Shown here one piece after another: positions 4,701 to 64,000 of a stretch of DNA of 64,000 nt. A program made the translations under genes and the position numbers. The notes beneath the pieces are model-generated. The model did not search any database. It was not told the DNA's origin and saw only the letters and a list, made by a program, of their open reading frames with translations. The stretch is from Alitta virens (Eukaryota > Annelida > Polychaeta > Phyllodocida > Nereididae): the NCBI GenBank assembly GCA_932294295.1, contig OW028574.1, forward strand, positions 29,582,145 through 29,646,144. Reading direction: 5' to 3'. Positions within the stretch are counted from its first letter, which is position 1. Each line of letters starts with the position of its first letter.

Positions 4701-5575
4701 ACTTATCTTTTGACTATGCACAAAATTTGTTCATACCGCACAATGCTCAACAGGTGGGACCCTTGTACTTCAAAACACCTAGGAAAGTACTGTTATTTGG
4801 AATTTGTTGTGAGATGCTCCCAAAGCAAGTCAACTATTTGATCGACGAGAGCCAGAACACTGGGAAAGGTGCGAATGAGACAGTGAGCTACCTCCACCAT
4901 TATCTTCAAACGCATGCCATCGCCAATAAGAACATCAACTTTCACTGTGACAACTGTGTGGGCCAAAACAAAAACAACACTGTAGTCCATTATTTATTAT
5001 GGCGAGTAGCAACTGGACTGAGCAACAGGTGTCAACTATCTTTCATGATTGTGGGACACACCAGATTTTCTCCAGATTGGTGTTTTGGCCTCATCAAGAT
5101 GCGGTACAGAAAGTCTACAGTCTCAAGCATGGAACAGATTGGCAGTGTTATTACAAGATCCACAAATAAAGCAATTAATCAAGTTCAGTACATCTGCAGT
5201 CCTGAGAGCAATGAGTTACATGTACCCATCTACAATTGGTCTGCATTTCTAAGCAGGTACTTCAAACCTCTGCCTGGGATAACCAAATACCATCATTTGT
5301 GCGCCTCTGGATCTACAGGAACACTGCATGTGAAGCTGCTACCAGGATCAACTGAGGAATCGTTTTGCCTGTTCAAGGATGGAGTCCCAGTGCCAAGAAA
5401 GGAGGATTTGCCATCTGCTGTTACTCCTTCAGGCCTGTCCCCAGAGCGACAGTGGTATCTTTACAATAACAACAGACAGCACTGTCAAGATGAATACAAA
5501 GATCATGTTGCACCGAAACCGCTCGTTACCAAACCAGGCAAACCTTCTTCCAACAAGCGCCCACGCCGTTGTTGA
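1766..5575 (+). CDS. DUF7869-like, transposase-derived protein (four exons, 5' end incomplete)
   Basis: Four segments join in one frame: 1766-2054, 3445-3600, 3797-3981 and 4097-5575. All introns are GT-AG and the phases agree (1, 1, 0), giving about 702 codons. The first exon lacks an in-frame ATG and is preceded by a stop, so a start exon is missing or lost. Exon 4 carries a CETC pair (about residue 352), LSFDYAQ with a phase of hydrophobic residues (about 414) and HCDNCVGQNKNN (about 492). It ends in a basic SSNKRPRRC tail that could be a nuclear signal. From memory of the family, these blocks mark DUF7869 proteins, which are multicopy in corals, fish and other animals and probably mobile-element derived. 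Acidic residues in the two blocks may belong to an RNase H-like core; that is inference. The exons are free of stops, so the copy may be intact or domesticated. Confidence 0.75.
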
Positions 5576-14016: not shown

Positions 14017-14097
14017 ATGCGAGAATATGGTGGCTGCAAAGGAAATGCCAAAGGATTCGAGTCAGAAGAAGCTCGCTTGAAGAAGTGTGGGTTCTGA
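14017..14097 (+). pseudogene. Decayed C-terminal half of a Kunitz domain
   Basis: The frame starting at ATG 14017 reads MREYGGCKGNAKGFESEE then ARLKKCGF and a stop at 14095-14097. The YGGCxGN...FxSxE...C pattern is the second half of a Kunitz/BPTI domain. The usual fifth cysteine is an arginine here and no first half is visible upstream, so it is not a working inhibitor. It lies 1.5 kb from the three intact Kunitz exons but on the opposite strand, which suggests an inverted duplication. A GTGAGT donor-like site follows at about 14105. Confidence 0.55.
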
Positions 14098-15378: not shown

Positions 15379-15410
15379 TCAGGTCATCTTGTTCTTCGGG
15401 TGATTCTTTC
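15379..15410 (-). CDS. Proposed terminal coding exon (basic tail)
   Basis: A strong acceptor (TTTATTTTTCTCCAG) precedes sequence that, joined in phase 1 to the third Kunitz exon, reads RKNHPKNKMT and then TGA. The alternative is that the Kunitz exon is terminal: without splicing it reads on as KSKKDL and TAA. The strong donor AAAAGTAAGA in the same phase as its neighbours favours splicing. Confidence 0.5.
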
Positions 15411-33400: not shown

Positions 33401-36400
33401 CAGTCATTTGGCCATGAGAGTTCACCCACACCAGGGTGTAATGACATTTAATACTAATATGTTTATTTTTTGCTTGTTCGATGAAGCCCTACGATTACAT
33501 TTTCCGAAAAATATGACATAGACTGATATGAGCAAGACAACCTTTATGAGACTGTTCCAGCTCCCATTCAACCCAATCCAGCTAGCTATAGCTTTCTAAT
33601 GGACTCCTCATCTAGATGACTTACAGGGACATGTGGCGAAACGATATTTTATAATGCAAACTTAAGGATTTAAAACGTAATGTGCCTTTCCTGTTGCATT
33701 TCTTTTGCTGCTGAATACCATCAAATGAAATGCCTTTGACTTCCAGAAATACTTTTAAAATGAAAGACTGTGATATGATTTTGTAAAATATACCATGTAA
33801 GCATCCTTTAATGACTGCTTCAGCTTCATCACAAAGATGTCCATCTTCACATTCAAACTTCATTTCAATCCTGTGAACATATCCGAGACCTGTTGGAAGT
33901 GGAGCTGATGAAACACTTGGCCCAGTGAAGTACAATTTGTCATTTTCCTGCAAGCAGAGCATCACATAATTTAGGAATGACATTCAAGATGTTACTTACT
34001 CAAAAATGACTTTAAAATATTTCCTCACAACACCTACCATGACCATTACCATATCCTCAATGAAGTAAGTAATGGTAACAATGAGAGTCCCATGATCTGA
34101 ACAAATTTCGGTGACCCTAATATCAAATCGAGTTAGTTCAGCAGATGTGCTGCTAACAAGAACAACACTTCCAGTACTGGGAATTTCTAAACGACTAAAT
34201 CCTTCATCATCTGGATAACCAACAGATTCATCACCAGGGGGAGAGAATACGCTCTCTTCACCATCCAGCATGGGGTCATAACACTCTGAAAATAGGCATT
34301 TCAAATTAGTTGCAAAGGCCATATTCCCTTCGACATTGTCAAAACACTTTTGTTTAATCAATGATTGAAACCTAGACCAGCTGTTGTGACCTACCTGGGG
34401 TTGTTGTAGTTGGCGTAGTTGTAGTTGTGCTTGAAGTTGTTGAGGCTGAAAATATGAGTAAATTCTTCATGTCCATCACCCTTACTTAATCACAATTTAC
34501 AAATAAATGAGGCATTTTGACAAGAATACATTTTGTGCCCTTTCTAAAAGTACATTTTAAACTGAATTTTCGTTTTGCTGTTTGTGTTGTTGAAGATATA
34601 TAATGACTCCAAGAGGTTTTTGATTTACCTAGCCTGTCAATGTATACATCTGCAAAAACATTTTCTGACACAACTCCACAATCCATATACAGGGTTATTT
34701 AATTCAAAGCTGTATTTTGCAATATGCTAAAACTGTGTATGAATATGATTGAAAATATTATTTTTTGGGCTATTGGTTGGTGTAGGGATTGTGTTGGGTG
34801 CCAAGGGAGTTGTAGTTGGGCTTGTAGTGGAAGTTGTAGATGTAGTGTTAGTTGGAGTTGTAGTTGAGCTTCTAGAGGGAGTTGTCGTAGTCTATGCTAT
34901 AGTAATAAGGTATGAATAATGGCTTTATATACCACCAAGAATAATTTCATGCACTGAAGCTTCATTTAAGCACTAACTGACCCAACCTCTCTTTTACTCT
35001 CCAGAACTACACATTCCTTTTCATTTTATGTAAAATAATAGCCAAGGGAGTTTGCATTCCACCTATCACGTATATATCTAGGAGTGAAATGCCTGCCCAC
35101 AATCCATACACAGACTTATTTCATGCAAAGATTTGCTCTGCAAAATTGCAACTATATTTTTAGAATATGAGCACAAGTCTTACTTGTGCTGATGGTTGAT
35201 GTTGGGCTTGTAGTAGTTGTGGGAGTCTTATTTGTGTTTGTTGGTGAAGTGGGAGTTGGGCTTGTAGTGGACGTTGGAGCTGTAGTAGTGCTTGTAGTAG
35301 TTGAAGCTGGAGTGGTAGTTGTCAGCTCTGAAGTAGTGAAAAAATAACAAAAATAGATCTACATGCTTCCAATGAGGATTTCATTCACTGCAGCTTCTTT
35401 AGGGAACTCACTAACCAGGCGCAGGTCACCCATCATATTCAAGGTTAGTGTGAAGCGCTAAACTCACTGCACAGATTACAAAAGATTGATGACAGGGCTA
35501 TAAAATATGATTCCTACTGGTATTGTCAAAACACTTTTGTTTAATCAATGATTGAAACCCAGACTAGCTGCTGTGGCCTACCTGGGGTTGTTGTAGTTTG
35601 CGTAGTTGTAGTTGTGCTTGAAGTTGTTGAGGCTAAAAATATGAGTAAATTCTTCATGTCCATCACTCTACTTAATCACAATTTACAAATAAATGAGGCA
35701 TTTTGACAAGAATACATTTTGTGCCCTTTCTAAAAATACATTTTAAACTGAATGTTTGTTTTCCTGTTTGTGTTGTTGAAGATATAAAAATGACTCCAGG
35801 AGGTTTTTGATTTACCTAGCCTGTCAATGTATACATCTGCAAAAACATTTTCTGACACAACTCCACAATCCATATACAGGGTTATTTAATTCAAAGCTGT
35901 ATTTTGCAATATTCTAAAACTGTATATGAATATGATTGAAAATATTATTTTTTGGGCTATTGGTTGGTGTAGGGATTGTGTTAGGTGCCAAGGGAGTTGT
36001 AGTTGGGCTTGTAGTGGAAGTTGTAGATGTAGTGTTAGTTGGAGTTGTAGTTGGGCTTCTAGAGGGAGTTGTCGTAGTCTCTGCTATAGTAATAAGGTAT
36101 GAATAATGGCTTTATATACCACCAAGAATAATTTCATGCACTGAAGCTTCATTTAAGCACTAACTGACCCAACCACTTTTTTACTCTCCAGAACTACACA
36201 TTCCTTTTCATTTTATGTAAAACAATAGCTAAGGGAGTTTGCATTCCAACTATCACGTATATATCTAGGAGTGAAATGCCTGCCCACAATCCATACACAG
36301 ACTTATTTCAGGCAAAGATTTGCTCTGCAAAATTGCAACTATATTTATAGAATATGAGCACAAGTCTTACTTGTGCTGGTGGTTGATGTTGGGCTTGTAG

Positions 36401-39400
36401 AAGTTTTGGGAGTCGTAGTTGTGTCTGTGGGTGAAGTGGGAGTTGGGCTTGTAGTGGACGTTGGAGTTGTAGTAGTGCTTGTAGTAGTTGAAGCAGGAGT
36501 GGTAGTTGTCAGCTCTGAAGTAGTGAAAAAATAACAATAATAGATCTACATGCTTCCAATGAGGATTTCATTCACTGCAGCTTCTTTAGGGAACACACTA
36601 ACCAGGCGCAGGTCACCCATCATATTCAAGGTTAGTGTAAAGCGCTAACTCACTGCACAGATTACAAAAGATTGATGACAGGGCTATAAAATATGCACAG
36701 TTATAAACAACGATCAATACCCTCTGTGCATCCTCTGATAATTGCATCCACGTCATCACAAAGTTCGCCGGAATCACATTCAAAAACCAGCTTAATTCTG
36801 TTAATTTTCCCTATTCCTACTGGTATTGCAATGTCTCGCACTTCAGGTTTGTTGAACTGCATTTGACCCTGCAATGGTAATTGTATAATGTATGAGTCAA
36901 TTCACTAGGAGAGTAATGTTTCCATGCACCAATTGTTGTAGTTAAGACACTTACTGTACTGTATTGTCCCGCATCACCAAAGTAAACTACTTTGACCAGA
37001 AGTGTTCCATCTTTTGAGCAGATTTCATTGACTTTCAGTGTGAATTTAGTTATTTCAGCAGGTCTTGTGCTTATGAGCACAACAGTACCATCATTCGGGA
37101 TACGTATACGTGAGAAACCCTCGGGATCTGGTGAGTCCATACTTCCACCTTTGGGAGAGAATACACTCTCCTCACCATTTAGCATGGGGTCATAACACTC
37201 TGAAAATAGGCATTTCAAATTAGTTTCAAAGGCCATATTCCCTTTGACATTGTCAAAACACTTTTGTTTAATCAATGATTGAAACCTAGACCAGCTGTTG
37301 TGACCTACCTGGGGTTGTTGTAGTTGGCGTAGTTGTAGTTGTGCTTGAAGTTGTTGAGGCTGAAAATATGAGTACATTTTTCATGTCCATCACCCTTACT
37401 TAATCACAATTTACAAATAAATGAGGCATTTTGACAAGAATACATTTTGTGCCCTTTCTAAAAGTACATTTTAAACTGAATTTTCGTTTTCCTGTTTGTG
37501 TTGTTGAAAATATATAATGACTCCAAGAGGTTTTTGATTTACCTAGCCTGTCAATGTATACATCTGCAAAAACATTTGCTGACACAACTCCACAATCCAT
37601 ATACAGGGTTATTTAATTCAAAGCTGTATTTTGCAATATTCTAAAACTGTGTATGAATATGATTGAAAATATTATTTTTTGGGCTATTGGTTGGTGTAGG
37701 GATTGTGTTGGGTACCAAGGGAGTTGTAGTTGGGCTTGTAGTGGAAGTTGTAGATGTAATGTTAGTTGGAGTTGTAGTTGGGCTTCTAGAGGGTGTTGTC
37801 GTAGTCTATGCTATAGTAATAAGGTATGAATAATGGCTTTATATACCACCAAGAATAATTTCATGCACTGAAGCTTCATTTAAGCACTAACTGACCCAAC
37901 CTCTCTTTTACTCTCCAGAACTACACATTCCTTTTCATTTTATGTAAAATAATAGCCAAGGGAGTTTGCATTCCACCTATCACGTATATATCTAGGAGTG
38001 AAATGCCTGCCCACAATCCATACACAGACTTATTTCATGCAAAGATTTGCTCTGCAAAATTGCAACTATATTTATAGAATATGAGCACAAGTCTTACTTG
38101 TGCTGGTGGTTGATGTTGGGCTTGTAGTAGTTGTGGGAGTTGTATTTGTGTTTGTTGGTGAAGTGGGAGTTGGGCTTGTAGCGGACGTTGGAGTTGTAGT
38201 AGTGCTTGTAGTAGTTGAAGCCGGAGTGGTAGTTGTCAGCTCTGAAGTAGTGAAAAAATAACAAAAATACATCTACTTGCTACCAATGAGGATTTCATTC
38301 ACTGCAGCTTCTTTAGGAACTCACTAACCAGGTGCAGGTCACCCATCATATTCAAGGTTAGTGTGAAGCGCTAAACTCACTGCACAGATTACAAAAGATT
38401 GATGACAGGGCTATAAAATATGCACAGTTATAAACAACGATCAATACCCTCTGTGCATCCTCTGATAATTGCATCCACGTCATCACAAAGTTCGCCGGAA
38501 TCACATTCAAATACCAGCTTAATTCTGTTAATTTTCCCTATTCCTACTGGTATTGCAATGTCTCGCACTTCAGGTTTGTTGAACTGCATTTGACCCTGAA
38601 ATGGTAATTGTATAATGTATGAGTCAATTCACTATGAGAGTAATGTTTCCATGCACCAATTGTTGTAGTTAAGACACTTACTGTACTGTATCTTCCCGCA
38701 TCACCAAAGTAAACTACTTTGACCAGAAGTGTTCCATCTTTTGAGCAGATTTCATTGACTTTCAGTGTGAATTTAGTTATTTCAGCAGGTCTTGTGCTTC
38801 TGAACACAACAGTACCATCATTCGGGATACGTATACGTGAGAAACCCTCGGGATCTGGTGAGTCCATACTTCCACCTTTGGGAGAGAATACACTCTCCTC
38901 ACCATTTAGCATGGGGTCATAACACTCTGAAAATAGGCATTTCAAATTAGTTTCAAAGGCCATATTCCCTTTGACATTGTCAAAACACTTTTGTTTAATC
39001 AATGATTGAAACCTAGACTAGCTGTTGTGACCTACCTGGGGTTGTTGTAGTTGGCGTAGTTGTAGTTGTGCTTGAAGTTGTTGAGACTGAAAATATGAGT
39101 AAATTCTTCATGTCCATCACCCTTACTTAATCACAATTTACAAATAAATGAGGCATTGTGAGAAGAATACATTTTGTGCCCTTTCTAAAAGTACATTTTA
39201 AACTGAATTTTCGTTTTCCTGTTTGTGTTGTTGAAGATATATAATGACTCCAAGAGGTTTTTGATTTACCTAGCCTGTCAATGTATACATCTGCAAAAAC
39301 ATTTGCTGACACAACTGCACAATCCATATACAGGGTTATTTAATTCAAAGCTGTATTTTGCAATATTCTAAAACTGTGTATGAATATGATTGAAAATATT

Positions 39401-42400
39401 ATTTTTTGGGCTATTGGTTGGTGTAGGGATTGTGTTGGGTGCCAAGGGAGTTGTAGTTGGGCTTGTAGTGGAAGTAATGTTAGTTGGAGTTGTAGTTGGG
39501 CTTCTAGAGGGAGTTGTTGTAGTCTCTGCTATAGTAATAAGGTATGAATAATGGCTTTATGTACCACTAAGAATAATTTCATGCACTGAAGCTTCATTTA
39601 AGCACTAACTGACCCCTCCAGCTTTTTACTCTCCAGAACTACACATTTTATGTAAAATAATAGCCAAGGGAGTTTGCATTACACCTCTCGTGTATGTATC
39701 TAGGAGTGAAAAGCCACAGCCACAATCCACACACAGACTTAATTCATGCAAAGATTTGCTCTGCAAAATTGCAACTATATTTTTAGAATATGAGCACAAG
39801 TCTTACTTGTGCTGGTAGTTAATTTTGGGCTTCTAGTAATTGTTGGTGTCGTACTTGTGTCTGTGGGTGAAGTGGGAGTTGGGCTTGTATTGGACATTGG
39901 AGTTGTAGTAGTGCTTGTAGTAGTTGAAGCCGGAGGGGTAGTTGTCAGCTCTGAAGTAGTGAAAAAATAACAAAAATAGATCTACATGCTTCTAATGAGG
40001 ATTTCATTCACTGCAGCTTCTTTAGGGAACTCACTAACCAGGCGCAGGTCACCCATCATATTCAAGGTTAGTGTGAAGCGCTAAACTCACTGCACAGATT
40101 ACAAAAGATTGATGACAGGGCTATAAAATATGCACAGTTATAAACAACGATCAAGCATTCTCTGATAATTGCATCCACGTCATCACAAAGTTAGGCAATA
40201 TAGGCATTTCAAATTAGTTTCATAGGCCGTATTCCTACTGGTATTGTCAAAACACTTTTGTTTAATCAATGATTGAAACCCAGACTAGCTGCTGTGGCCT
40301 ACCTGGGGTTGTTGTAGTTGGCGTAGTTGTAGTTGTGCTTGAAGTTGTTGAGGCTGCAAATATGAGTAAATTCTTCATGTCCATCACTCTACTTAATCAC
40401 AATTTACAAATAAATGAGGCATTTTGACAAGAATACATTTTGTGCCCTTTCTAAAAATACATTTTAAACTGAATGTTTGTTTTCCTGTTTGTGTTGTTGA
40501 AGATATAAAAATGACTCCAGGAGGTTTTTGATTTACCTAGCCTGTCAATGTATACATCTGCAAAAACATTTGCTGACACAACTCCACAATCCATATACAG
40601 GGTTATTTAATTCAAAGCTGTATTTTGCAATATTCTAAAACTGTATATGAATATGATTGAAAATATTATAATTTTTTGGGTTATTGGTTGGTGTAGGGAT
40701 TGTGTTAGGTGCCAAGGGAGTTGTAGTTGGGCTTGTAGTGGAAGTTGTAGATGTAGTGTTAGTTGGAGTTGTAGTTGGGCTTCTAGAGGGAGTTGTCGTA
40801 GTCTCTGCTATAGTAATAAGGTATGAATAATGGCTTTATATACCACCAAGAATAATTTCATGCACTGAAGCTTCATTTAAGCACTAACTGACCCAACCAC
40901 TTTTTTACTCTCCAGAACTACACATTCCTTTTCATTTTATGTAAAACAATAGCCAAGGGAGTTTGCATTCCACCTATCACGTATATATATAGGAGTGAAA
41001 TGCCTGCCCACAATCCATACACGGACTTATTTCATGCAAAGATTTGCTCTGCAAAATTGCAACTATATTTTTTGAATATGAGCACAAGTCTTACTTGTGC
41101 TGGTGGTTGATGTTGGGCTTGTAGAAGTTGTGGGAGTCGTAGTTGTGTTTGTGGGTGAAGTGGGAGTTGGGCTTGTATTGGACGTTGGAGTTGTAGTAGT
41201 GCTTGTAGTAGTTGAAGCTGGAGTGGTAGTTGTCAGCTCTGAAGTAGTGAAAAAATAACAAAAATAGATCTAAATGCTTCCAATGAGGATTTCATTCACT
41301 GCAGCTTCTTTAGGGAACTCACTAACCAGGCGCAGGTCACCCATCATATTCAAGGTTAGTGTGAAGCGCTTAACTCACTGCACAGATTACAAAAGATTGA
41401 TGACAGGGCTATAAAATATGCACAGTTATAAACAACGATCAATACCCTCTGTGCATCCTCTGATAATTGCATCCACGTCATCACAAAGTTTGCCGGAATC
41501 ACATTCAAAAACCAGCTTAATTCTGTTAATTTTCCCTATTCCTACTGGTATTGCAATGTCTCGCACTTCAGGTTTGTTGAACTGCATTTGACCCTGCAAT
41601 GGTAATTGTATAATGTATGAGTCAATTCACTATGAGAGTAATGTTTCCATGCACCAATTGTTGTAGTTAAGACACTTACTGTACTGTATCTTCCCGCATC
41701 ACCAAAGTAAACTACTTTGACCAGAAGTGTTCCATCTTTTGAGCAGATTTCATTGACTTTCAGTGTGAATTTAGTTATTTCAGCAGGTCTTGTGCTTCTG
41801 AACACAACAGTACCATCATTCGGGATATGTATACGTGAGAAACCCTCGGGATCTGGTGAGTCCATACTTCCACCTTTGGGAGAGAATACACTCTCCTCAC
41901 CATTTAGCATGGGGTCATAACACTCTGAAAATAGGCATTTCAAATTAGTTTCAAAGGCCATATTCCCTTTGACATTGTCAAAACACTTTTGTTTAATCAA
42001 TGATTGAAACCTAGACCAGCTGTTGTGACCTACCTGGGGTTGTTGTAGTTGGCGTAGTTGTAGTTGTGCTTGAAGTTGTTGAGGCTGAAAATATGAGTAC
42101 ATTTTTCATGTCCATCACCCTTACTTAATCACAATTTACAAATAAATGAGGCATTTTGACAAGAATACATTTTGTGCCCTTTCTAAAAGTAAATTTTAAA
42201 CTGAATTTTCGTTTTCCTGTTTGTGTTGTTGAAAATATATAATGACTCCAAGAGGTTTTTGATTTACCTAGCCTGTCAATGTATACATCTGCAAAAACAT
42301 TTGCTGACACAACTCCACAATCCATATACAGGGTTATTTAATTCAAAGCTGTATTTTGCAATATTCTAAAACTGTGTATGAATATGATTGAAAATATTAT

Positions 42401-57400: not shown

Positions 57401-60400
57401 GTTGATGTTGGGCTTGTAGTAGTTGTGGGAGTCGTATTTGTGTTTGTTGGTGAAGTGGGAGTTGGGCTTGTAGTGGCCGTTGGAGTTGTAGTAGTGCTTG
57501 TAGTAGTTGAAGCTGGAGTGGTAGTTGTCAGCTCTGAAGTAGTGAAAAAATAACAAAAATAGATCTACATGCTTTCAAGGAGGATTTCATTCACTGCAGC
57601 TTCTTTAGGGAACTCACTAACCAGGTGCAGGTCACCCATCATATTCAAGGTTAGTGTGAAGCGCTAAACTCACTGCACAGATTACAAAAGATTGATGACA
57701 GGGCTATAAAATATGCACAGTTATAAACAACGATCAAGCATTCTCTGATTATTGCATCCACGTCATCACAAAGTTAGGCAATATAGGTATTTCAAATTAG
57801 TTTCATAGGCCGTATTCCTACTGGTATTGTCAAAACACTTTTGTTTAATCAATGATTGAAACCCAGACTAGCTGCTGTGGCCTACCTGGGGTTGTTGTAG
57901 TTGGCGTAGTTGTAGTTGTGCTTGAAGTTGTTGAGGCTGAAAATATGAGTAAATTCTTCATGTCCATCACCCTTACTTAATCACAATTTACAAATAAATG
58001 AGGCATTTTGACAAGAATACATTTTGTGCCCTTTCTAAAAGTACATTTTAAACTGAATTTTCGTTTTCCTGTTTGTGTTGTTGAAGATATATAATGACTC
58101 CAAGAGGTTTTTGATTTACCTAGCCTGTCAATGTATACATCTGCAAAAACATTTTCTGACACAACTCCACAATCCATATACAGGGTTATTTAATTCAAAG
58201 CTGTATTTTGCAATATTCTAAAACTGTGTATGAATATGATTGAAAATATTATTTTTTGGGCTATTGGTAGGGATTGTGTTAGGTGCCAAGGGAGTTGTAG
58301 TTGGGCTTGTAGTGGAAGTTGTAGATGTAGTGTTAGTTGGAGTTGTAGTTGGGCTTCTAGAGGGAGTTGGCGTAGTCTCTGCTATAGTAATAAGGTATGA
58401 ATAATGGCTTTATATACCACCAAGAATAATTTCATGCACTAAAGCTTCATTTAAGCACTAACTGACCCAACCACTTTTTTACTCTCCAGAACTACACATT
58501 CCTTTTCATTTTATGTAAAACAATAGCCAAGGGAGTTTGCATTCCACCTATCACGTATATATCTAGGAGTGAAATGCCTGCCCACAATCCATACACAGAC
58601 TTATGTCAGGCAAAGATTTGCTCTGCAAAATTGCAACTATATTTTTAGAATATGAGCACAAGTCTTACTTGTGCTGGTGGTTGATGCTGGGCTTGTAGTA
58701 GTTGTGGGAGTCGTATTTGTGTTTGTTGGTGAAGTGGGAGTTGGGCTTGTAGTGGACGTTGGAGTTGTAGTAGTGCTTGTAGTAGTTGAAACTGGAGTGG
58801 TAGTTGTCAGCTCTGAAGTAGTGAAAAAATAACAAAAATAGATCTACATGCTTCCAATGAGGATTTCATTCACTGCAGCTTCTTTAGGGAACTCACTAAC
58901 CAGGTGCAGGTCACCCATCATATTCAAGATTAGTGTGAAGCGCTAAACTCACTGCACAGATTACAAAAGATTGATGACAGGGCTATAAAATATGCACAGT
59001 TATAAACAACGATCAATACCCTCTGTGCATCCTCTGATAATTGCATCCACGTCATCACAAAGTTCGCCGGAATCACATTCAAAAACCAGCTTAATTCTGT
59101 TAATTTTCCCTATTCCTACTGGTATTGCAATGTCTCGCACTTCAGGTTTGTTGAACTGCATTTGACCCTGCAATGGTAATTGTATAATGTATGAGTCAAT
59201 TCACTATGAGAGTAATGTTTCCATGCACCAATTGTTGTAGTTAAGACACTTACTGTACTGTATCTTCCCGCATCACCAAAGTAAACTACTTTGACCAGAA
59301 GTGTTCCATCTTTTGAGCAGATTTCATTGACTTTCAGTGTGAATTTAGTTATTTCAGCAGGTCTTGTGCTTCTGAACACAACAGTACCATCATTCGGGAT
59401 ACGTATACGTGAGAAACCCTCGGGATCTGGTGAGTCCATACTTCCACCTTTGGGAGAGAATACGCTGTCCTCACCATTCAGCATGGGGTCATAACACTCT
59501 GAAAATAGGCATTTCAAATTAGTTTCAAAGGCCATATTCCCTTGGACATTGTCAAAAAACTTTTGTTTAATCAATGATTGAAACCCAGACTAGCTGCTGT
59601 GGCCTACCTGGGGTTGTTGTAGTTGGCGTAGTTGTAGTTGTGCTTGAAGTTGTTGAGGCTGAAAATATATGTAAATTCTTCATGTCCATCACCCTTACTT
59701 AATCACAATTTACAAATAAATGAGGCATTTTGACAAGAATACATTTTGTGCCCTTTCTAAAAGTACATTTTAAACTGAATTTTCGTTTTCCTGTTTGTGT
59801 TGTTGAAGATATATAATGACTTCAAGAGGTTTTTGATTTACCTAGCCTGTCAATGTATACATCTGCAAAAACATTTTCTGACACAACTCCACAATCCATA
59901 TACAGGGTTATTTAATTCAAAGCTGTATTTTGCAATATTCTAAAACTCTGTATGAATATGATTGAAAATATAATTTTTGGGCTATTGGTAGGGATTGTGT
60001 TAGGTGCCAAGGGAGTTGTAGTTGGGCTTGTAGTGGAAGTTGTAGATGTAGTGTTAGTTGGAGTTGTAGTTGGGCTTCTAGAGGGAGTTGTCGTAGTCTC
60101 TGCTATAGTAATAAGGTATGAATAATGGCTTTATATACCACCAAGAATAATTTCATGCACTAAAGCTTCATTTAAGCACTAACTGACCCAACCACTTTTT
60201 TACTCTCCAGAACTACACATTCCTTTTCATTTTATGTAAAACAATAGCCAAGGGAGTTTGCATTCCACCTATCACGTATATATCTAGGAGTGAAATGCCT
60301 GCCCACAATCCATACACAGACTTATGTCAGGCAAAGATTTGCTCTGCAAAATTGCAACTATATTTTTAGAATATGAGCACAAGTCTTACTTGTGCTGGTG

Positions 60401-63400
60401 GTTGATGCTGGGCTTGTAGTAGTTGTGGGAGTCGTATTTGTGTTTGTTGGTGAAGTGGGAGTTGGGCTTGTAGTGGACGTTGGAGTTGTAGTAGTGCTTG
60501 TAGTAGTTGAAACTGGAGTGGTAGTTGTCAGCTCTGAAGTAGTGAAAAAATAACAAAAATAGATCTACATGCTTCCAATGAGGATTTCATTCACTGCAGC
60601 TTCTTTAGGGAACTCACTAACCAGGTGCAGGTCACCCATCATATTCAAGATTAGTGTGAAGCGCTAAACTCACTGCACAGATTACAAAAGATTGATGACA
60701 GGGCTATAAAATATGCACAGTTATAAACAACGATCAATACCCTCTGTGCATCCTCTGATAATTGCATCCACGTCATCACAAAGTTCGCCGGAATCACATT
60801 CAAAAACCAGCTTAATTCTGTTAATTTTCCCTATTCCTACTGGTATTGCAATGTCTCGCACTTCAGGTTTGTTGAACTGCATTTGACCCTGCAATGGTAA
60901 TTGTATAATGTATGAGTCAATTCACTATGAGAGTAATGTTTCCATGCACCAATTGTTGTAGTTAAGACACTTACTGTACTGTATCTTCCCGCATCACCAA
61001 AGTAAACTACTTTGACCAGAAGTGTTCCATCTTTTGAGCAGATTTCATTGACTTTCAGTGTGAATTTAGTTATTTCAGCAGGTCTTGTGCTTCTGAACAC
61101 AACAGTACCATCATTCGGGATACGTATACGTGAGAAACCCTCGGGATCTGGTGAGTCCATACTTCCACCTTTGGGAGAGAATACGCTGTCCTCACCATTC
61201 AGCATGGGGTCATAACACTCTGAAAATAGGCATTTCAAATTAGTTTCAAAGGCCATATTCCCTTGGACATTGTCAAAAAACTTTTGTTTAATCAATGATT
61301 GAAACCCAGACTAGCTGCTGTGGCCTACCTGGGGTTGTTGTAGTTGGCGTAGTTGTAGTTGTGCTTGAAGTTGTTGAGGCTGAAAATATGAGTAAATTCT
61401 TTATGTCCATCACCCTTACTTAATCACAATTTACAAATAAATGAGGCATTTTGACAAGAATACATTTTGTGCCCTTTCTAAAAGTACATTTTAAACTGAA
61501 TTTTCGTTTTCCTGTTTGTGTTGTTGAAGATATATAATGACTCCAAGAGGTTTTTGATTTACCTAGCCTGTCAATGTATACATCTGCAAAAACATTTTCT
61601 GACACAACTCCACAATCCATATACAGGGTTATTTAATTCAAAGCTGTATTTTGCAATATTCTAAAACTCTGTATGAATATGATTGAAAATATAATTTTTG
61701 GGCTATTGGTAGGGATTGTGTTAGGTGCCAAGGGAGTTGTAGTTGGGCTTGTAGTGGAAGTTGTAGATGTAGTGTTAGTTGGAGTTGTAGTTGGGCTTCT
61801 AGAGGGAGTTGTCGTAGTCTCTGCTATAGTAATAAGGTATGAATAATGGCTTTATATACCACCAAGAATAATTTCATGCGCTAAAGCTTCATTTAAGCAC
61901 TAACTGACCCAACCACTTTTTTACTCTCCAGAACTACACATTCCTTTTCATTTTATGTAAAACAATAGCCAAGGGAGTTTGCATTCCAACTATCACGTAT
62001 ATATCTAGGAGTGAAATGCCTGCCCACAATCCATACACAGACTTATGTCAGGCAAAGATTTGCTCTGCAAAATTGCAACTATATTTTTAGAATATGAGCA
62101 CAAGTCTTACTTGTGCTGGTGGTTGATGCTGGGCTTGTAGTAGTTGTGGGAGTCTTATTTGTGTTTGTTGGTGAAGTGGGAGTTGGGCTTGTAGTGGACA
62201 TTGGAGTTGTAGTAGTGCTTGTAGTAGTTGAAGCTGGAGTGGTAGTTGTCAGCTCTGAAGTAGTGAAAAAATAACAAAAATAGATCTACATGCTTCCAAT
62301 GAGGATTTCATTCACTGCAGCTTCTTTAGGGTACTCACTAACCAGGTGCAGGTCACCCATCATATTCAAGGTTAGTGTGAAGCGCTAAACTCACTGCACA
62401 GATTACAAAAGATTGATGACAGGGCTATAAAATATGCACAGTTATAAACAACGATCAATACCCTCTGTGCATCCTCTGATAATTGCATCCACGTCATCAC
62501 AAAGTTCGCCGGAATCACATTCAAAAACCAGCTTAATTCTGTTAATTTTCCCTATTCCTACTGGTATTGCAATGTCTCGCACTTCAGGTTTGTTGAACTG
62601 CATTTGACCCTGCAATGGTAATTGTATAATGTATGAGTCAATTCACTATGAGAGTAATGTTTCCATGCACCAATTGTTGTAGTTAAGACACTTACTGTAC
62701 TGTATCTTCCCGCATCACCAAAGTAAACTACTTTGACCAGAAGTGTTCCATCTTTTGAGCAGATTTCATTGACTTTCAGTGTGAATTTAGTTATTTCAGC
62801 CGGTCTTGTGCTTCTGAACACAACAGTACCATCATTCGGGATACGTATACGTGAGAAACCCTCGGGATCTGGTGAGTCCATACTTCCACCTTTGGGAGAG
62901 AATACGCTGTCCTCACCATTCAGCATGGGGTCATAACACTCTGAAAATAGGCATTTCAAATTAGTTTCAAAGGCCATATTCCCTTGGACATTGTCAAAAA
63001 ACTTTTGTTTAATCAATGATTGAAACCCAGACTAGCTGCTGTGGCCTACCTGGGGTTGTTGTAGTTAGCGTAGTTGTAGTTGTGCTTGAAGTTGTTGAGG
63101 CTGAAAATATGAGTAAATTCTTTATGTCCATCACCCTTACTTAATCACAATTTACAAATAAATGAGGCATTTTGACAAGAATACATTTTGTGCCCTTTCT
63201 AAAAGTACATTTTAAACTGAATTTTCGTTTTCCTGTTTGTGTTGTTGAAGATATATAATGACTCCAAGAGGTTTTTGATTTACCTAGCCTGTCAATGTAT
63301 ACATCTGCAAAAACATTTTCTGACACAACTCCACAATCCATATACAGGGTTATTTAATTCAAAGCTGTATTTTGCAATATTCTAAAACTCTGTATGAATA

Positions 63401-64000
63401 TGATTGAAAATATAATTTTTGGGCTATTGGTAGGGATTGTGTTAGGTGCCAAGGGAGTTGTAGTTGGGCTTGTAGTGGAAGTTGTAGATGTAGTGTTAGT
63501 TGGAGTTGTAGTTGGGCTTCTAGAGGGAGTTGTCGTAGTCTCTGCTATAGTAATAAGGTATGAATAATGGCTTTATATACCACCAAGAATAATTTCATGC
63601 GCTAAAGCTTCATTTAAGCACTAACTGACCCAACCACTTTTTTACTCTCCAGAACTACACATTCCTTTTCATTTTATGTAAAACAATAGCCAAGGGAGTT
63701 TGCATTCCACCTATCACGTATATATCTAGGAGTGAAATGCCTGCCCACAATCCATACACAGACTTATGTCAGGCAAAGATTTGCTCTGCAAAATTGCAAC
63801 TATATTTTTAGAATATGAGCACAAGTCTTACTTGTGCTGGTGGTTGATGCTGGGCTTATAGTAGTTGTGGGAGTCGTATTTGTGTTTGTTGGTGAAGTGG
63901 GAGTTGGGCTTGTAGTGGACATTGGAGTTGTAGTATTGCTTGTAGTAGTTGAAGCTGGAGTGGTAGTTGTCAGCTCTGAAGTAGTGAAAAAATAACAAAA
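15379..64000 (-). CDS. Giant mucin / SCO-spondin-like secreted glycoprotein gene (3' part, N-terminus outside)
   Basis: One continuous minus-strand gene runs from beyond the right edge to 15379. Single-copy exons from 34445 down to 15379 join without a frame error, and most introns are phase 1. The protein in order: tandem Ser/Thr cassettes with CYDP domains (34.3-64 kb); last CYDP domain of the array (34285-33794); a divergent relative (30948-30354); a 13-residue mucin repeat (30090-29806); Ser/Thr linker and CYDP domain (25644-23788); two Thr-rich linkers; VWC-like, TSP1, TIL and VWC-like modules (23070-17780); a CTCK (17603-17091); a Pro linker; three Kunitz domains; a basic tail. Architecture implies a secreted, heavily O-glycosylated, disulfide-multimerising protein, as in gel-forming mucins, otogelin and SCO-spondin. 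The signal peptide and any VWD domains would lie outside the window. Whether one transcript covers the whole array is inference. Confidence 0.75.
15589..15759 (-). CDS. Exon: Kunitz domain 3 (acidic P1)
   Basis: A 171-base phase 1-1 exon with one Kunitz/BPTI domain: CESDADPGPCEAAIPMWYF, then FTYGGCEGNANRYESK and two closing cysteines. The six framework cysteines are present plus a seventh at WYFNC. The residue after the second cysteine (P1) is glutamate, unlike the basic P1 of trypsin inhibitors, so this copy probably does not inhibit trypsin-like proteases and may bind something else. Last of three Kunitz exons of the gene. Confidence 0.85.
16152..16322 (-). CDS. Exon: Kunitz domain 2 (P1 Lys)
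   Basis: A 171-base phase 1-1 exon: DCTLPKDRGPCKAALPRWYF, then CKQFIYGGCNGNRNNYKSE and CEAVCGAPEPG. All six cysteines and the YGGCxGNxNN signature are intact. P1 is lysine, as expected for inhibition of trypsin-like serine proteases. Acceptor TTTCAG and donor GTAATG flank it. It acts outside the cell as part of the large glycoprotein, if translated. Confidence 0.9.
16455..16619 (-). CDS. Exon: Kunitz domain 1 (P1 Arg)
   Basis: A 165-base phase 1-1 exon: CTSPKETGPCRAYFQRWYF, then CKKFVYGGCSGNGNNYPSK and CKATCGAPG. Six cysteines are intact and P1 is arginine, typical of trypsin-like protease inhibitors. It is the first of three Kunitz exons, each in its own exon, which fits growth by phase-1 exon duplication. 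Confidence 0.9.
16743..16796 (-). CDS. Exon: Ser/Pro linker between cystine knot and Kunitz domains
   Basis: A 54-base phase 1-1 exon reading SEPSSTSSTKMPPPPPPPG once joined to its neighbours. Short, flexible, possibly O-glycosylated spacer. Confidence 0.75.
17091..17265 (-). CDS. Exon: C-terminal cystine knot (CTCK), second half
   Basis: Phase 0 to 1. Reads YGDIVVGNVVYERRDSCACC, then VAFGCNGRKM and CTCTAQTCE. The CxCC, GCNG and CxCxxxxC spacing matches the CTCK domain that ends VWF, gel-forming mucins and SCO-spondin, where it mediates disulfide dimerisation in the endoplasmic reticulum. Unlike in those proteins it is not the end of the chain: a Pro linker and three Kunitz domains follow. 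Confidence 0.85.
17467..17603 (-). CDS. Exon: C-terminal cystine knot (CTCK), first half
   Basis: Phase 1 to 0. Reads DGPPKGACTLHRVTEYLNF and then VDVNYCRGDCHTFE. The YCRGDC pair corresponds to the CxGxC of the cystine-knot ring. One cysteine usual near the start of mucin CTCK domains is absent. It joins directly to the 17091-17265 exon. Confidence 0.85.
17780..17936 (-). CDS. Exon: VWC-like module
   Basis: Phase 0 to 1. Reads ETPASWYDEDNHCIYHECIF, then YYDECKCPAGTHQVKKG and ECCVCETG. The C-x-C and closing CCxC pattern is that of a von Willebrand type C-like module, which usually sits just before the cystine knot, as it does here. Confidence 0.75.
18051..18241 (-). CDS. Exon: TIL (trypsin inhibitor-like Cys-rich) domain
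   Basis: Phase 1 to 0. Reads CGKNEQYYEEHCESTCSNL, then NGCGCAPGYHRKADACV and ECFKCYFPNGT. The cysteine spacing and the CGCxxGY motif are those of a TIL domain as found between modules of SCO-spondin and mucins. The tail leads into the VWC-like exon. Confidence 0.8.
18573..18743 (-). CDS. Exon: thrombospondin type 1 repeat
   Basis: Phase 1-1, 171 bases. Reads DGGYSAWSNWGACDKTCGGG, then YRSRTRKCTNP and CNWQACP. W-x-x-W, CDKTCGGG and RxRxRxC are the classic TSP1 marks for C-mannosylation and cysteine pairing. Confidence 0.9.
19139..19191 (-). CDS. Exon: VWC-like linker
   Basis: Small 53-base exon, phase 2 to 1. With its neighbour it reads DCSICVCWTDGKVLCQSIKE, a CxCxxGxxxC motif like the second half of a VWC module. 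Confidence 0.7.
19307..19483 (-). CDS. Exon: TSP1 second half plus VWC-like start
   Basis: 177 bases, phase 2 to 2. Reads SNNSPPKSGNGAACTEPV, ETRECNKQSCPECAVVQEDG and then the beginning of a VWC-like module (YYYPEYQTINETDCSI). It completes the TSP1 begun at 20919-21044. Confidence 0.8.
19565..20651. mobile_element. MITE-like DNA transposon in an intron, with inverted ends and ATA target duplication
   Basis: The left end TAGTCCATGAGCCAG...GTTACCAGTCAAAGGGACAA is matched by the reverse complement of the right end, TAGTCCATGGGCCAG...GTTACCGGTCAAGGGGACAA. Both ends share blocks TAGTCCATG, GTTACC, GTCAA and GGACAAAGGCTA over about 60 bases. ATA flanks both sides (19562-19564 and 20652-20654). Inside are two long diverged direct repeats that each start AAACAATACATGGTTTCCTA (about 19791 and 20055), and no open frame. 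It sits in the intron between exons 19307-19483 and 20919-21044. The family is not recognised. Confidence 0.75.
20741..20820. repeat. GGCCGACGTC-type short repeat
   Basis: GGCCCGATGTTAGCC, GGTCCGACGTCGCCC and GGGCCGACGTC lie in a row in an intron. It resembles in style the GGCCAACATT cluster at 12600-12905. Confidence 0.45.
20919..21044 (-). CDS. Exon: VWC end plus TSP1 first half
   Basis: 126 bases, phase 2 to 2. Reads CKCKDGQLQCGTKDCDQDCG followed by YSDWSPWQKCSASCGGG. The WSPW and CSASCGGG motifs open a TSP1 repeat that continues in exon 19307-19483. Confidence 0.85.
21173..21298 (-). CDS. Exon: TIL/VWC-like module
   Basis: 126 bases, phase 2 to 2. Reads CPRGTVMDDSGNCV, then ENCPCYYQGVEYPANF and DNDCDYC. 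The CPxGxxxDxxGxC...CPC pattern is the C-terminal half of a TIL domain followed by a VWC-like start, as in VWF-type assemblies. Confidence 0.8.
21451..21736 (-). CDS. Exon: TSP1 plus TIL start
   Basis: 286 bases, phase 1 to 2. A complete TSP1 repeat (DGVWTSWSTWSSCSSTCGGG, then YRSRNC, CPGADTESEIC, CNPKLC as spaced cysteines) runs into a cysteine-rich stretch (VDCCEVGCPRTCRDI ... CYPICR) that begins the TIL completed by exon 21173-21298. Confidence 0.85.
22316..22477 (-). CDS. Exon: thrombospondin type 1 repeat
   Basis: 162 bases, phase 1-1. Reads CQWGSWGPWTSCSKSCGQG, then SRTRIRVEYNP and CPGTATETEICNQQNCK. WGSWGPW and CSKSCGQG are TSP1 marks. First TSP1 of the C-terminal region. Confidence 0.85.
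22563..22612 (-). CDS. Exon: short VWC-like linker
   Basis: 50 bases, phase 2 to 1. Reads ECNLGEVVCVPKASCD; with the preceding exon it forms CTICECNLGEVVC, a CxCxxGxxxC VWC-like motif. Confidence 0.7.
22890..23070 (-). CDS. Exon: Cys-containing module before the TSP1 repeats
   Basis: 181 bases, phase 1 to 2. Reads GCIYSASNYLMQFGKNYCGD, CTLPWIETDGIPGFSGN and VKTYSNCTIC. Function not recognised; its end starts a VWC-like motif. Acceptor TATTTCAG, donor GTAATA. Confidence 0.75.
23326..23394 (-). CDS. Exon: Thr-rich linker with tandem (NAGNAG) acceptor
   Basis: 69 bases, phase 1-1. Reads AGTTTGTTITICTTGTFPV and then TSAPG. The acceptor region CTGCAGCAG offers two sites three bases apart, so the transcript could include or omit one alanine-type codon. 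Confidence 0.65.
23628..23687 (-). CDS. Exon: Ser/Thr-rich linker
   Basis: 60 bases, phase 1-1. Reads EVRTTSSSTTTMSTPSPTTT. Acceptor CTCTCAACAG; the donor GTTTTTTTT is weak. Mucin-type spacer. Confidence 0.6.
23788..25284 (-). CDS. CYDP domain, old single copy (exons 25037-25284 and 23788-23935)
   Basis: Two exons. The first (248 bases, phase 1 to 0) reads LCYDPMLNGVNSIFLPKEDG, GFSQIKIPDDGVVILKSST and FTLRVNEICSNDGTLVVRV. The second (148 bases, phase 0 to 1) reads DKIEFTAPGVEDIRTPAGIG, FKIRIKFKCNDGKLCDDVD and AIIRGCVQG. Five cysteines, in the same places as in the array copies. Alternating hydrophobic residues suggest a beta-sandwich; no family is recognised. It diverges strongly from the array copies, so it predates the amplification. 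Confidence 0.7.
25477..25644 (-). CDS. Exon: Ser/Thr-rich mucin linker
   Basis: 168 bases, phase 1-1. Reads STSPSTTTSTTSSTTTLLYT and on through Thr runs to TTSVTLTTTPR. Dense O-glycosylation is expected. Acceptor TTTTTAG, donor GTAAGA. Confidence 0.75.
25851..25897. repeat. Perfect 19-bp inverted repeat (hairpin)
   Basis: Arms 25851-25869 (TGTTGAACCATGGAGTCAC) and 25879-25897 (GTGACTCCATGGTTCAACA) pair perfectly around a 9-base loop. It lies in an intron of the large gene. Nothing nearby explains it. Confidence 0.95.
26240..26312 (-). repeat. tRNA-derived SINE head
   Basis: On the minus strand TGGTTAAGTCGATAAGG resembles box A and GGATTTGATCCC resembles box B (GGTTCGANTCC), with tRNA-like spacing. 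The body would run toward lower coordinates through about 25900. Substitutions in both boxes show a diverged SINE, not a tRNA gene. Confidence 0.55.
26313..28285. other. Large intron, no exon seen
   Basis: Part of the intron between exons 25477-25644 and 29806-30090. Around 26605-26720 is a GCGGATCC-containing, C/G-rich scrap that looks transposon-derived. At 27617-27660 GCAGGTGGC and GCCACCTGC face each other 26 bases apart and could form a stem. No coding exon was found. Confidence 0.5.
28317..29231 (-). CDS. Intronless 304-residue gag-like protein with YARxNxPPR repeats
   Basis: ATG to TAA, 304 residues. The N-terminus has a possible zinc knuckle, CMACGRSARGHRGRMGRYC (C-x2-C...H...C), and an acidic stretch (CLSDDLEDVNLGD) follows. 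The last 150 residues hold six or so imperfect copies of a 13-16 residue motif of the type YARANGPPR with Glu/Gln between copies (YARENAPL, YARGDIPQR, YARANDPPR, ANGPPRLL, YARANGPG). No polymerase, protease or integrase is present. I do not recognise the family; the CxxC...GH...G..C start resembles gag-like first frames of retroelements. It lies inside an intron of the large gene on the same strand but has its own promoter. Confidence 0.6.
   Translation of the reverse strand: MTGRNARTCMACGRSARGHRGRMGRYCEIAMPSGHFDCLSDDLEDVNLGDVQNEREGVRDDLQGGTEQPVNLLSATKSYSNVLQQQITGQFSLPPPIDDGRDRVPPNRSSAPVVPENHVPTSQRFIDTHSKMADESQFGAVGGLLPMYDVYVPAEYNRHEMGYARENAPLHHEPYNRGNGPPRLEREYARGDIPQRQETAYARANDPPRQAMEFAQVNPTPPRANGPPRLLTEPSRMNTPPRREVGYARANGPGALEHNIMFNRSDALHGPVTPGRNGGAYGQMPARQQLPGHAVTNTSQLEYV
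29561..29568 (-). promoter_or_regulatory. TATA box of the gag-like element
   Basis: TATATAAG on the minus strand, about 330 bases before the ATG of the 304-residue frame, with a GC-rich stretch (GCGGACTCTCCCGC) directly after it. A start of transcription near 29530 would give a roughly 300-base leader. Confidence 0.5.
29806..30090 (-). CDS. Exon: mucin minisatellite, 13-residue repeats
   Basis: 285 bases, phase 1-1. Encodes about six tandem copies of a 39-base unit giving SPTTTSTATTPTP, with small variants (TAITPTP, TNTAI). Acceptor TTTTTATCAG, donor GTAAGA. The opposite strand also stays open (Val/Gly-rich), but that is a shadow of the repeat. O-glycosylated spacer, probably polymorphic in copy number. 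Confidence 0.8.
30354..30948 (-). CDS. Divergent CYDP-like domain with Ser/Thr lead (exons 30593-30948 and 30354-30507)
   Basis: Exon one (356 bases, phase 1 to 0) begins with a Thr-rich linker (TTPSASTASTTPSTTTVPTT), then FECPSGSFPLEYDQDDFD, VDVTDIILRPSNQPYSPRR, LEVHFKVLGARSVTFFTTG and ends AST. Exon two (154 bases, phase 0 to 1) reads VPSICRFGRFCDFTYVVPG, GWNVDNIAVHVESQRGM and DLYIIECAEG. The exon split, phases, AST end and the closing I-x-C-x-E-G match the CYDP domain, although residues hardly align. It has four cysteines. Probably an ancient relative of the same fold. Confidence 0.65.
31155..31683. mobile_element. Candidate inverted-terminus element (529 bp)
   Basis: The left end CCAGTGCAAATTCGTTGAC resembles the reverse complement of the right end, CCAGTCAATTCGTCGAC. 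The motif AATTCGTTGACAAA recurs inside in both orientations (about 31166, 31309 and, reversed, 31634 and 31670). No target duplication is evident. Lies in the intron upstream of the exon at 30593-30948. Could instead be a degenerate satellite. Confidence 0.4.
31684..33793. other. Intron, no exon seen
   Basis: About 2.1 kb of AT-rich intron between the divergent CYDP-like domain and the last array copy. Short open frames here lack splice sites and any recognisable motif. Confidence 0.5.
33794..34285 (-). CDS. CYDP domain, last array copy, diverged (exons 34038-34285 and 33794-33947)
   Basis: Exon one: CYDPMLDGEESVFSPPGDES, GFSRLEIPSTGSVVLVSST, FDIRVTEICSDHGTLIVTI; exon two: ENDKLYFTGPSVSSAPLPTG, HRIEMKFECEDGHLCDEAE and AVIKGCLHG. 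All five cysteines are kept. It differs from the tight array consensus at many residues, so it is the oldest unit, at the 3' edge of the array, where turnover leaves relics. Confidence 0.75.
34395..34445 (-). CDS. 51-base Ser/Thr exon (representative; one per unit)
   Basis: Phase 1-1, reads STTSSTTTTTPTTTTPG between acceptor TTTTCAG and donor GTAGGT. Twenty copies occur, the others near 35580, 37312, 39035, 40303, 42032, 43760, 45030, 46758, 48483, 49751, 51480, 52768, 54050, 55338, 56600, 57886, 59608, 61328 and 63050. Acceptor variants TTTTTAG, TTTGCAG and TTTTCAG occur; all keep the AG. Confidence 0.75.
36371..36514 (-). CDS. Long Ser/Thr exon (representative; one per unit)
   Basis: 144 bases, phase 1-1, acceptor CACTACTTCAG and donor GTAAGA. 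Reads ELTTTTPASTTTSTTTTP and on through TSTTSPTPTSPT and TTTPTTSTSPTSTTSTS-like text. The other copies end at about 35336, 38238, 39949, 41240, 42963, 44674, 45963, 47688, 49398, 50684, 52412, 53697, 54982, 56247, 57532, 58810, 60532, 62252 and 63972. Likely a densely O-glycosylated spacer. Confidence 0.75.
36721..37199 (-). CDS. CYDP domain, array copy (exons 36955-37199 and 36721-36868)
   Basis: Exon one reads ECYDPMLNGEESVFSPKGG, GFSRIRIPNDGTVVLIST, FTLKVNEICSKDGTLLVKV and ends GQYST; exon two reads GQMQFNKPEVRDIAIPVGIG, INRIKLVFECDSGELCDDVD and AIIRGCTEG. Five cysteines. Differs from the other array copies by LIST (others FRST) and GQYST (others GRYST). An intronic upstream stretch stays open to 37377 and makes the frame look longer than the exon. 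Confidence 0.8.
37543..37563 (-). CDS. 21-base microexon (representative; one per unit)
   Basis: Between acceptor TTTTTGCAG and donor GTAAAT lie 21 bases in phase 1-1 that add D/VYIDRL. Intact copies also start at 34629, 35816, 39270, 40537, 42268, 43995, 45262, 46993, 48719, 49986, 51717, 53001, 54285, 56835, 58120, 59842, 61563 and 63284. In the unit near 55561 a deletion removes its donor and half the exon. The surrounding 66-residue open frames (MDCGVV...) are read-through of flanking intron. Confidence 0.55.
   Translation of the reverse strand: MYTLTG
38448..38926 (-). CDS. CYDP domain, array copy (exons 38682-38926 and 38448-38595)
   Basis: FRST/GRYST type with GEESVFSP, RIRIP and SGELC. 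Acceptor of exon two is CATTTCAG where most copies have CATTGCAG. Same sequence type as the copies at 43173 and 47897, as expected from the higher-order repeat. Confidence 0.8.
41446..41924 (-). CDS. CYDP domain, array copy (exons 41680-41924 and 41446-41593)
   Basis: FRST/GRYST type with GEESVFSP but RIHIP (Arg to His) and SGKLC (Glu to Lys) relative to the 38448 copy. Last domain of higher-order copy a. Confidence 0.8.
43173..43651 (-). CDS. CYDP domain, array copy (exons 43407-43651 and 43173-43320)
   Basis: Identical in protein to the 38448 copy (GEES, RIRIP, FRST, SGELC). Confidence 0.8.
46171..46649 (-). CDS. CYDP domain, array copy (exons 46405-46649 and 46171-46318)
   Basis: GEDSVFSP (Glu to Asp), RIHIP and SGKLC: combines the changes of the 41446 copy with the Asp variant found in all copies further upstream in the gene. 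Confidence 0.8.
47897..48375 (-). CDS. CYDP domain, array copy (exons 48131-48375 and 47897-48044)
   Basis: Same protein as the 38448 and 43173 copies. Confidence 0.8.
50895..51373 (-). CDS. CYDP domain, array copy (exons 51129-51373 and 50895-51042)
   Basis: Same GEDS/RIHIP/SGKLC type as the 46171 copy; last domain before the run of short units. Confidence 0.8.
51435..58260 (-). repeat. Run of short cassettes lacking the CYDP domain
   Basis: Five consecutive domain-less remnants lie at about 52.65, 53.95, 55.2, 56.5 and 57.8 kb, spaced 1.26-1.29 kb apart. Each keeps the Ser/Thr exons; one has lost its microexon donor (55.56 kb). Here the predicted protein is almost pure Ser/Thr/Pro. Confidence 0.85.
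59020..59498 (-). CDS. CYDP domain, array copy (exons 59254-59498 and 59020-59167)
   Basis: GEDSVFSP, RIRIP, FRST, SGELC. A recombinant type: Asp as in the 46171 copy, Arg and Glu as in the 38448 copy. Confidence 0.8.
60741..61219 (-). CDS. CYDP domain, array copy (exons 60975-61219 and 60741-60888)
   Basis: Same protein as the 59020 copy. Confidence 0.8.
62462..62940 (-). CDS. CYDP domain, array copy (exons 62696-62940 and 62462-62609)
   Basis: Same protein as the 59020 copy; one silent change in the Pro codon of the RPAEI stretch at about 62801. Most 5' domain visible in the window. Confidence 0.8.

Follow-up and report, generated by a model that had tools for sequence, protein, structure and literature searches.

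The window analysed here, a stretch of 64,000 nucleotides of animal-like DNA (it contains introns and encodes TSP1 and Kunitz domains), carries on its minus strand a tandem array of multi-exon coding cassettes. Very probably the array is the repetitive interior of a single giant mucin-like gene with a probably secreted product, and its phase 1-1 cassettes would be gained and lost by unequal crossing-over. A first-pass annotation had pointed to a nested array of mucin cassettes in this region; the observation is confirmed, and the main points of that description were right. The best reading of the product is a giant matrix or mucus protein, mucin-like and probably secreted. From the sequence we infer its transcription, glycosylation and secretion, its polymorphism and the function of its globular domain D.

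Organization of the array

Cassettes were delimited by exon anchors and by cutting the array into units, which were numbered U1 to U20 in the direction of the gene.

34286..63991, minus strand: the tandem array U1-U20; the gene runs from high to low coordinates and its 5' end, where a signal peptide would be encoded, lies beyond the window
58829..63991, minus strand: U1-U3, three long cassettes of 1721 bp (exons M1 and M3 plus domain D), 99.2-99.5% identical to one another
52431..58828, minus strand: U4-U8, five short cassettes of 1265-1285 bp without D, all five with common deletion-junction strings
47707..52430, minus strand: higher-order block 1 of 4724 bp (U9 long, U10 short, U11 long)
42983..47706, minus strand: higher-order block 2 of 4724 bp (U12, U13, U14), in which U12 is a hybrid of U18-like and U9-like sequence
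38258..42982, minus strand: higher-order block 3 of 4725 bp (U15, U16, U17), in which U15 is another hybrid of U18-like and U9-like sequence and switches within the D1 exon
36531..38257, minus strand: U18, long cassette, the parent type for the 5' part of the hybrids
35344..36530, minus strand: U19, a short cassette reduced to 1187 bp by an additional deletion
34286..35343, minus strand: U20, edge cassette, with array-type mucin exons followed by the diverged domain D'

Read from 5' to 3', the array thus consists of three long cassettes, five short ones, three copies of a long-short-long block, and finally a long, a short and the edge cassette. The start-to-start distances between units obtained by the cutting are 1721, 1721, 1721, 1279, 1285, 1265, 1285, 1284, 1727, 1288, 1709, 1727, 1288, 1709, 1728, 1288, 1709, 1727 and 1187 bp, and of the twenty cassettes ten are long (1709-1728 bp), nine are short (1187-1288 bp) and one, U20, forms the edge. 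Since U1 starts at 63991, at the edge of the window, twenty is a minimum. The initial description had counted twenty cassettes in a long class of about 1.72 kb and a short class of 1.2-1.3 kb; the count and the long class hold, but U19 is shorter than that range and U20 is not a short cassette, since it links mucin sequence of the array type to the old, diverged domain D'. The three long-short-long blocks with periods of 4725 and 4724 bp were recovered at the lengths listed above, and the short run and the 1721-bp long run announced beside them are U4-U8 and U1-U3. In a self-comparison of positions 34290-64000 the top lags were 9449, 4724, 4725, 1727 and 1721, among them both of the diagonals (4725 and 1721 bp) that had been expected.

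Coding capacity of the cassettes

Exon limits in the array were set manually from splice consensus and reading frame, and are exemplified here by unit U9.

52271..52414, minus strand: M1 exon, 144 bp, 48 aa, phase 1-1, found in all 20 cassettes
51483..51533, minus strand: M3 exon, 51 bp, 17 aa, phase 1-1, found in all 20 cassettes
51129..51373, minus strand: D1 exon, 245 bp, found in the 10 long cassettes
50895..51042, minus strand: D2 exon, 148 bp, found in the 10 long cassettes; D1 and D2 together encode the 131-aa domain D

All 20 M1, 20 M3 and 10 D copies have open frames between AG acceptors and GT donors, and not one of them shows a frameshift, a stop or a lost splice site, in the same units that have accumulated many changes in their introns. 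M1 (144 nt), M3 (51 nt) and the D pair (393 nt) are multiples of three and each is of phase 1-1, with a phase 0 intron inside D, which bears out the earlier statement that every cassette is phase 1-1 and compatible with coding. In this way, a long cassette adds 196 aa, that is, a 65-aa Thr/Ser/Pro spacer and the 131-aa cysteine-containing domain, and a short cassette adds the 65-aa spacer alone, because a deletion removed its D. The coding capacity of the array within the window amounts to 2610 aa (20 x 65 + 10 x 131). Thr, Ser and Pro make up 89% of the 1300 M1 and M3 residues (58% Thr, 17% Ser and 14% Pro), the long Pro/Thr/Ser-rich tandem region by which mucins are recognized. Moreover, as in multi-exon coding VNTRs of the LPA and DMBT1 type, each tandem unit comprises whole exons and introns, the gain or loss of a unit keeps the frame through the common phase of M1, M3 and D, and the one-switch hybrids U12 and U15 (see below) provide evidence of unequal exchange.

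The 3' continuation of the gene

Downstream of the array, 28 exons were chosen by splice consensus and frame. Their phases agree throughout, from D' (34285) down to the TGA at 15379, which ends the frame and is its one stop. In order they encode D', mucin sequence, the domain Dx, mucin sequence with a 39-bp repeat, the domain D25, mucin sequence, four TSP1 domains, two TIL domains, a cysteine-rich segment and three Kunitz domains.

33794..34285, minus strand: D', two exons, a diverged copy of D (49% identical) that closes the array
30354..30948, minus strand: mucin linker and Dx, a further two-exon domain (ECPSG...) with a D-like exon layout
29806..30090, minus strand: mucin exon that holds 6.4 copies of a 39-bp in-frame tandem repeat with 94% matches, a second, smaller coding repeat
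25477..25644, minus strand: mucin exon
23788..25284, minus strand: D25, two exons, a copy of D (57% identical)
15379..23687, minus strand: C-terminal exons, with short mucin exons, four TSP1, two TIL, a cysteine-rich region, three Kunitz domains and the stop TGA at 15379

The database protein P0008, an uninterrupted protein of 910 aa from a 3169-base contig, is 54% identical to the gene model over 722 columns, and 35% identical to the Dx part over 203 columns; since it is uninterrupted, it supports the splicing of the aligned exons into one protein. P0008 has no match to D25 and ends in an EGF domain, with no Kunitz domain, so that it must come from another gene or species and may be incomplete. 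SCO-spondin and VWF-type gel-forming proteins carry VWD-C8-TIL assemblies; a search with the 861-aa C-terminal end returned the four TSP1 and two TIL domains, with no VWD or C8 match up to an E-value of 0.01.

Just 5' of Dx, a frame that starts with ATG (30944-31036, minus strand) reads MACISLPGHVVVMLIVLLILYYTALYVIAEA and looks by eye like a signal peptide. Possibly the gene starts at Dx instead, in which case the model would be divided in two.

Relatives of domain D

D is a domain without a match in Pfam: for D, D', D25 and Dx, no family was found up to an E-value of 10, and a PDB profile search for D gave five matches, none of them convincing (best E-value 0.6). With a 784-aa composite query no D homologue was found among 91 candidates, and an alignment of four D versions identified seven proteins among 527 candidates, one of them at 99% identity (P0001) and six at 39-57%. 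P0001, from ENA, is 99% identical to D1, comes from a contig of 1848 bases and carries a residue absent from the ten D copies of the window; it can be read as one more cassette copy or as an allele. The idea that its contig is a collapsed tandem unit of a short-read assembly (1848 = 1721 + 127) was set aside, because it is drawn from one number that other sizes fit as well. Four of the six, the short proteins P0004 to P0007, are D1-like and closely alike one another, which hints that other genes or species also have arrays of D. Scans of prokaryote genomes and viral contigs revealed no relative, as expected for an animal gene, though entries from the window's own genome may be missing from such scans.

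Block identity and hybrid units

Over ungapped columns, identity in the 190 unit pairs ranges from 94.0 to 100%, far beyond chance. Within a block the units share 94.5-96.8% identity, as against 99.9-100% between the corresponding second and third units of different blocks, the pattern that defines a higher-order repeat; U11 is identical in sequence to U14, and U13 to U16. The first units, which include the hybrids, are 98.3-99.2% identical to one another. Outside the hybrid parts, one base in about 4 kb differs between blocks 1 and 2, and one between blocks 2 and 3. Private differences are present in U10, U15 and U17.

A close-up view of the first units reveals how the blocks may have arisen. 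U9 and U18 differ at 41 alignment columns. Of these, U12 agrees with U18 in 14 of the 15 that lie at or before column 612, and with U9 in all 26 from column 642; U15 agrees with U18 in 28 of the 29 at or before column 1097, and with U9 in all 12 from column 1159. The sole exception, column 464, stands against both hybrids and is most simply a later private mutation of U18. A 4.7-kb duplication by unequal crossing-over predicts that the unit at the join takes its 5' part from the downstream parent and its 3' part from the upstream one, and U12 and U15, which open blocks 2 and 3, are single-switch U18/U9 hybrids of precisely this polarity. The gain obtained by allowing one switch was reached in none of 200 column shuffles for U3, U4, U6, U8, U9, U12 and U15 (U8 and U9 each took the other as a parent in this scoring) and in two of 200 for U18; for the other 12 units it was reached in 20-200 of 200, with no significant gain. 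The switch of U15 falls within the D1 exon (columns 1063-1307), and an exchange within coding sequence has therefore kept the frame.

The array has grown recently, as seen from the U12 and U15 hybrids and from the single-base differences between blocks in about 4 kb. The initial proposal that the array is still being homogenised or expanded thus stands for recent expansion, but not for a uniform homogenisation: the difference between unit types reaches 6%, and identities of 99.9-100% are confined to the corresponding units of the duplicated blocks. Divergence between blocks is lower than the heterozygosity commonly seen in many marine invertebrates, so that the number of blocks, judged from the one sequence compared, may well vary within the species.

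These data suggest the following mechanism. Cassettes that misalign and undergo unequal crossing-over would make the array grow and shrink, and an exchange at matching internal positions of two cassettes would keep the frame in introns and exons alike. Two such exchanges, each offset by one 4.7-kb block, would give three blocks with hybrid units at the joins. The resulting protein would probably be a long chain of the heavily O-glycosylated type with many D modules, which the TSP1/TIL/Kunitz end would probably join to a matrix or gel, and each allele would set the length of the protein and its density of D through the number of cassettes.

Origin of the short class

Two deletion-junction strings are identical in eight of the nine short units, the exception being U19 with its further deletion, and the acceptor of D is absent from all nine. 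In each of the nine units a 17-bp string follows 64 bases after a common reference point at the M3 end; it occurs nowhere in the long unit U9 in exact form, and a near-identical string is found in the D2 exon of U9. The common junctions and the D2-like string suggest that the short class stems from one complex deletion that was then copied.

The M2 stretch

Each cassette contains a further exon-like stretch, M2, again exemplified by U9.

51814..51983, minus strand: M2 of U9, delimited by its acceptor and its in-frame stop, with ATTAAA and a GT-rich stretch downstream and no good in-phase donor

In all 20 copies M2 (another example lies at window position 48977, minus strand) has an acceptor and an in-frame stop, with ATTAAA and then a GT-rich stretch, and in seven of the 20 its first full codon is TAG. 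Checked against the nine-position donor consensus, a good in-phase donor is absent from all 20. The sole GT in 17 of the copies agrees with three of the nine positions and is of phase 2 in 14 and phase 1 in U1-U3; U8, U9 and U18 have an extra GT of phase 0 that agrees with 5, 5 and 4 positions, as against 7-8 for the donors of M1 and M3. M2 was thus rejected as a third internal coding exon, since no copy has a good in-phase donor, although a very weak donor is possible in U1-U3. Compared by eye, M2 appears to be a homologue of M1 that lost its donor, and its diversity (0.032) is near that of intron 1 (0.035), so that a dead exon is the most likely reading. The stop and the ATTAAA/GT-rich stretch common to the 20 copies also suggest a possible terminal exon. 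In that case M2 would be a ready-made early end of the message, and intronic polyadenylation could yield a ladder of protein lengths from one allele, besides the allelic variation in cassette number; we consider this scenario very improbable.

Diversity and selection within the array

Variable codons are nonsynonymous and synonymous in numbers of 19 and 5 in M1, 6 and 4 in D, and 3 and 0 in M3, and synonymous sites represent a fraction of 0.30 in M1 and 0.22 in D. By informal comparison with these fractions, the recent changes in M1, D and M3 all look not far from neutral, and diversifying selection on M1 was discarded on the same informal basis, 19 against 5 codons being about neutral when 30% of the sites are synonymous. 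Diversity in M1 (0.054) is higher than in introns 1 and 2 (0.035 and 0.022) and lower than in intron 3 (0.066 over all 20 units); in the long units intron 3 has 0.029. In the domain exons it is 0.013 for D1 and 0.006 for D2 (long units), and the intron between them, with 0.008, is as low as the exons, for which reason the low diversity of D is best explained by recent copying and not by selection. Over longer distances D is constrained, as indicated by dN/dS values of 0.32/1.44 against D25 and 0.47/1.17 against D'.

Alternative explanations

An error of assembly, in which a repeat loop was walked repeatedly or haplotypes were merged, would have inflated the number of 4.7-kb blocks and hidden a shorter true array. 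The assembly is the one source for the blocks, and the single base that sets neighbouring ones apart over some 4 kb, hybrid parts excluded, fits such an error. Against it, the switch points of U12 (columns 612-642) and U15 (columns 1097-1159) differ and U10, U15 and U17 carry private differences, which argues that three distinct blocks are recorded; moreover, most other units are 1-6% diverged, so they do not come from one loop, and the cassette exon recurs at 99% identity in P0001. An artefact is thus unlikely in our opinion. We give about the same low weight to gene conversion, instead of unequal crossing-over, as the source of homogenisation. The hybrid units U4, U6, U8 and U9 could be its products, as could the D2-matching 17-bp string that all nine short units, unlike U9, have in the intron after M3. 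Conversion, however, adds no 4.7-kb blocks and tends to leave patches with two switches, whereas U12 and U15 show one switch each, with the polarity that a duplication predicts.

Less likely still is a decayed coding array, a satellite-like spread inside a gene that splicing would mostly skip. The dead-looking M2 in every copy is in keeping with decay, as is the lack of a clear purifying signal in D and M1 within the array, where D1 is at least as diverse as the D intron. Decay is hard to reconcile with 20 M1, 20 M3 and 10 D exons free of frameshifts, stops and splice-site losses amid changing introns, and with the constraint on D against D25 and D'. The internal repeat region of a functional mucin-like gene, remodelled by unequal crossing-over, remains our preferred reading.

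Relation to known coding repeats

Arrays of this kind are known from DMBT1, LPA, nebulin and SmPoMuc, and the nested form with two classes of cassettes is a variant of it; by analogy, the array works like these systems, with its copy number known here from one sequence. The closest likeness is with the human SRCR-SID array of DMBT1 (salivary agglutinin), a mucin-hybrid glycoprotein of cysteine-rich domains and Ser/Thr-rich glycosylated motifs. According to the available text of the sources, its cysteine-rich domains alternate with glycosylated spacers and its alleles have 7-21 domains through tandem copy-number variation, bacterial binding changes with domain number, and selection on this number has been reported (PMC9038570); the estimated repeat length is 4059 bp, with splice-site variants inside (PMC11201333). 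DMBT1 has SRCR, CUB and ZP domains, whereas the array gene has a Pfam-less D and a TSP1/TIL/Kunitz end, runs of domain-free cassettes, and a three-cassette block as its copying unit. Kringle IV type 2 of LPA is likewise a multi-exon coding cassette with two exons per domain, of about 5.6 kb, with up to 40 repeats per allele and subtypes A, B and C (PMC11201333), but it encodes kringle domains, its introns measure about 4 kb and 1.2 kb, and neither a mucin spacer nor a two-length order is mentioned in the available portion of that source.

Higher-order coding repeats are described, in the portions available, for nebulin: in chicken, a recurrent set of four exons matches a seven-domain block (PMC1553488), and the repeat unit of human NEB exceeds 10 kb (PMC11201333), although this is a muscle filament protein and no mucin. 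Among invertebrate mucins with tandem exon-intron repeats, the available text on SmPoMuc of Schistosoma mansoni describes an exon with flanking introns, about 1 kb in all, in tandem, with Southern blots indicative of repeat-number differences between individuals; its authors hold that unequal exchange cannot account for homogenisation between loci (PMC2576457). SmPoMuc has one 27-bp exon per repeat and forms a multigene family, in contrast to the two or four exons per repeat and the nested block of the array gene. Tandem repeats of human mucins, as far as the source at hand describes them, vary strongly in length at several loci and lie in one large VNTR exon (PMC13345508), whereas the repeat of the array gene takes in introns and a globular domain. 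Titles and the first lines of abstracts, mostly outside subscription journals, gave no account of this gene or of a nested mucin-cassette array, which is weak evidence.

Single exchanges in such an array could retune both the length of the protein and its ratio of globular domain to glycosylated spacer with an intact frame, even when they fall inside an exon. Two recent exchanges can still be read in the array, their breakpoints located within about 30 and 62 alignment columns, which makes it a good system to study the rate at which coding higher-order repeats form and to ask, as for DMBT1, whether the number of D domains in a mucin is under selection.

Other reading frames in the window

A stretch at 28286-29765 (minus strand), inside an intron of the mucin gene, contains an open frame of 317 aa (28317-29270) with no Pfam match up to an E-value of 0.1, which is flanked by two 39-bp direct repeats, 92% identical, and has the look of a mobile element. 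On the plus strand, a frame at 14026-14097 resembles by eye the end of a Kunitz domain followed by a stop, and possibly belongs to a neighbouring Kunitz gene. A 499-aa open frame at 4076-5575, also on the plus strand, matches DUF7869 (E-value 1.3e-16) and is probably part of a transposable element.
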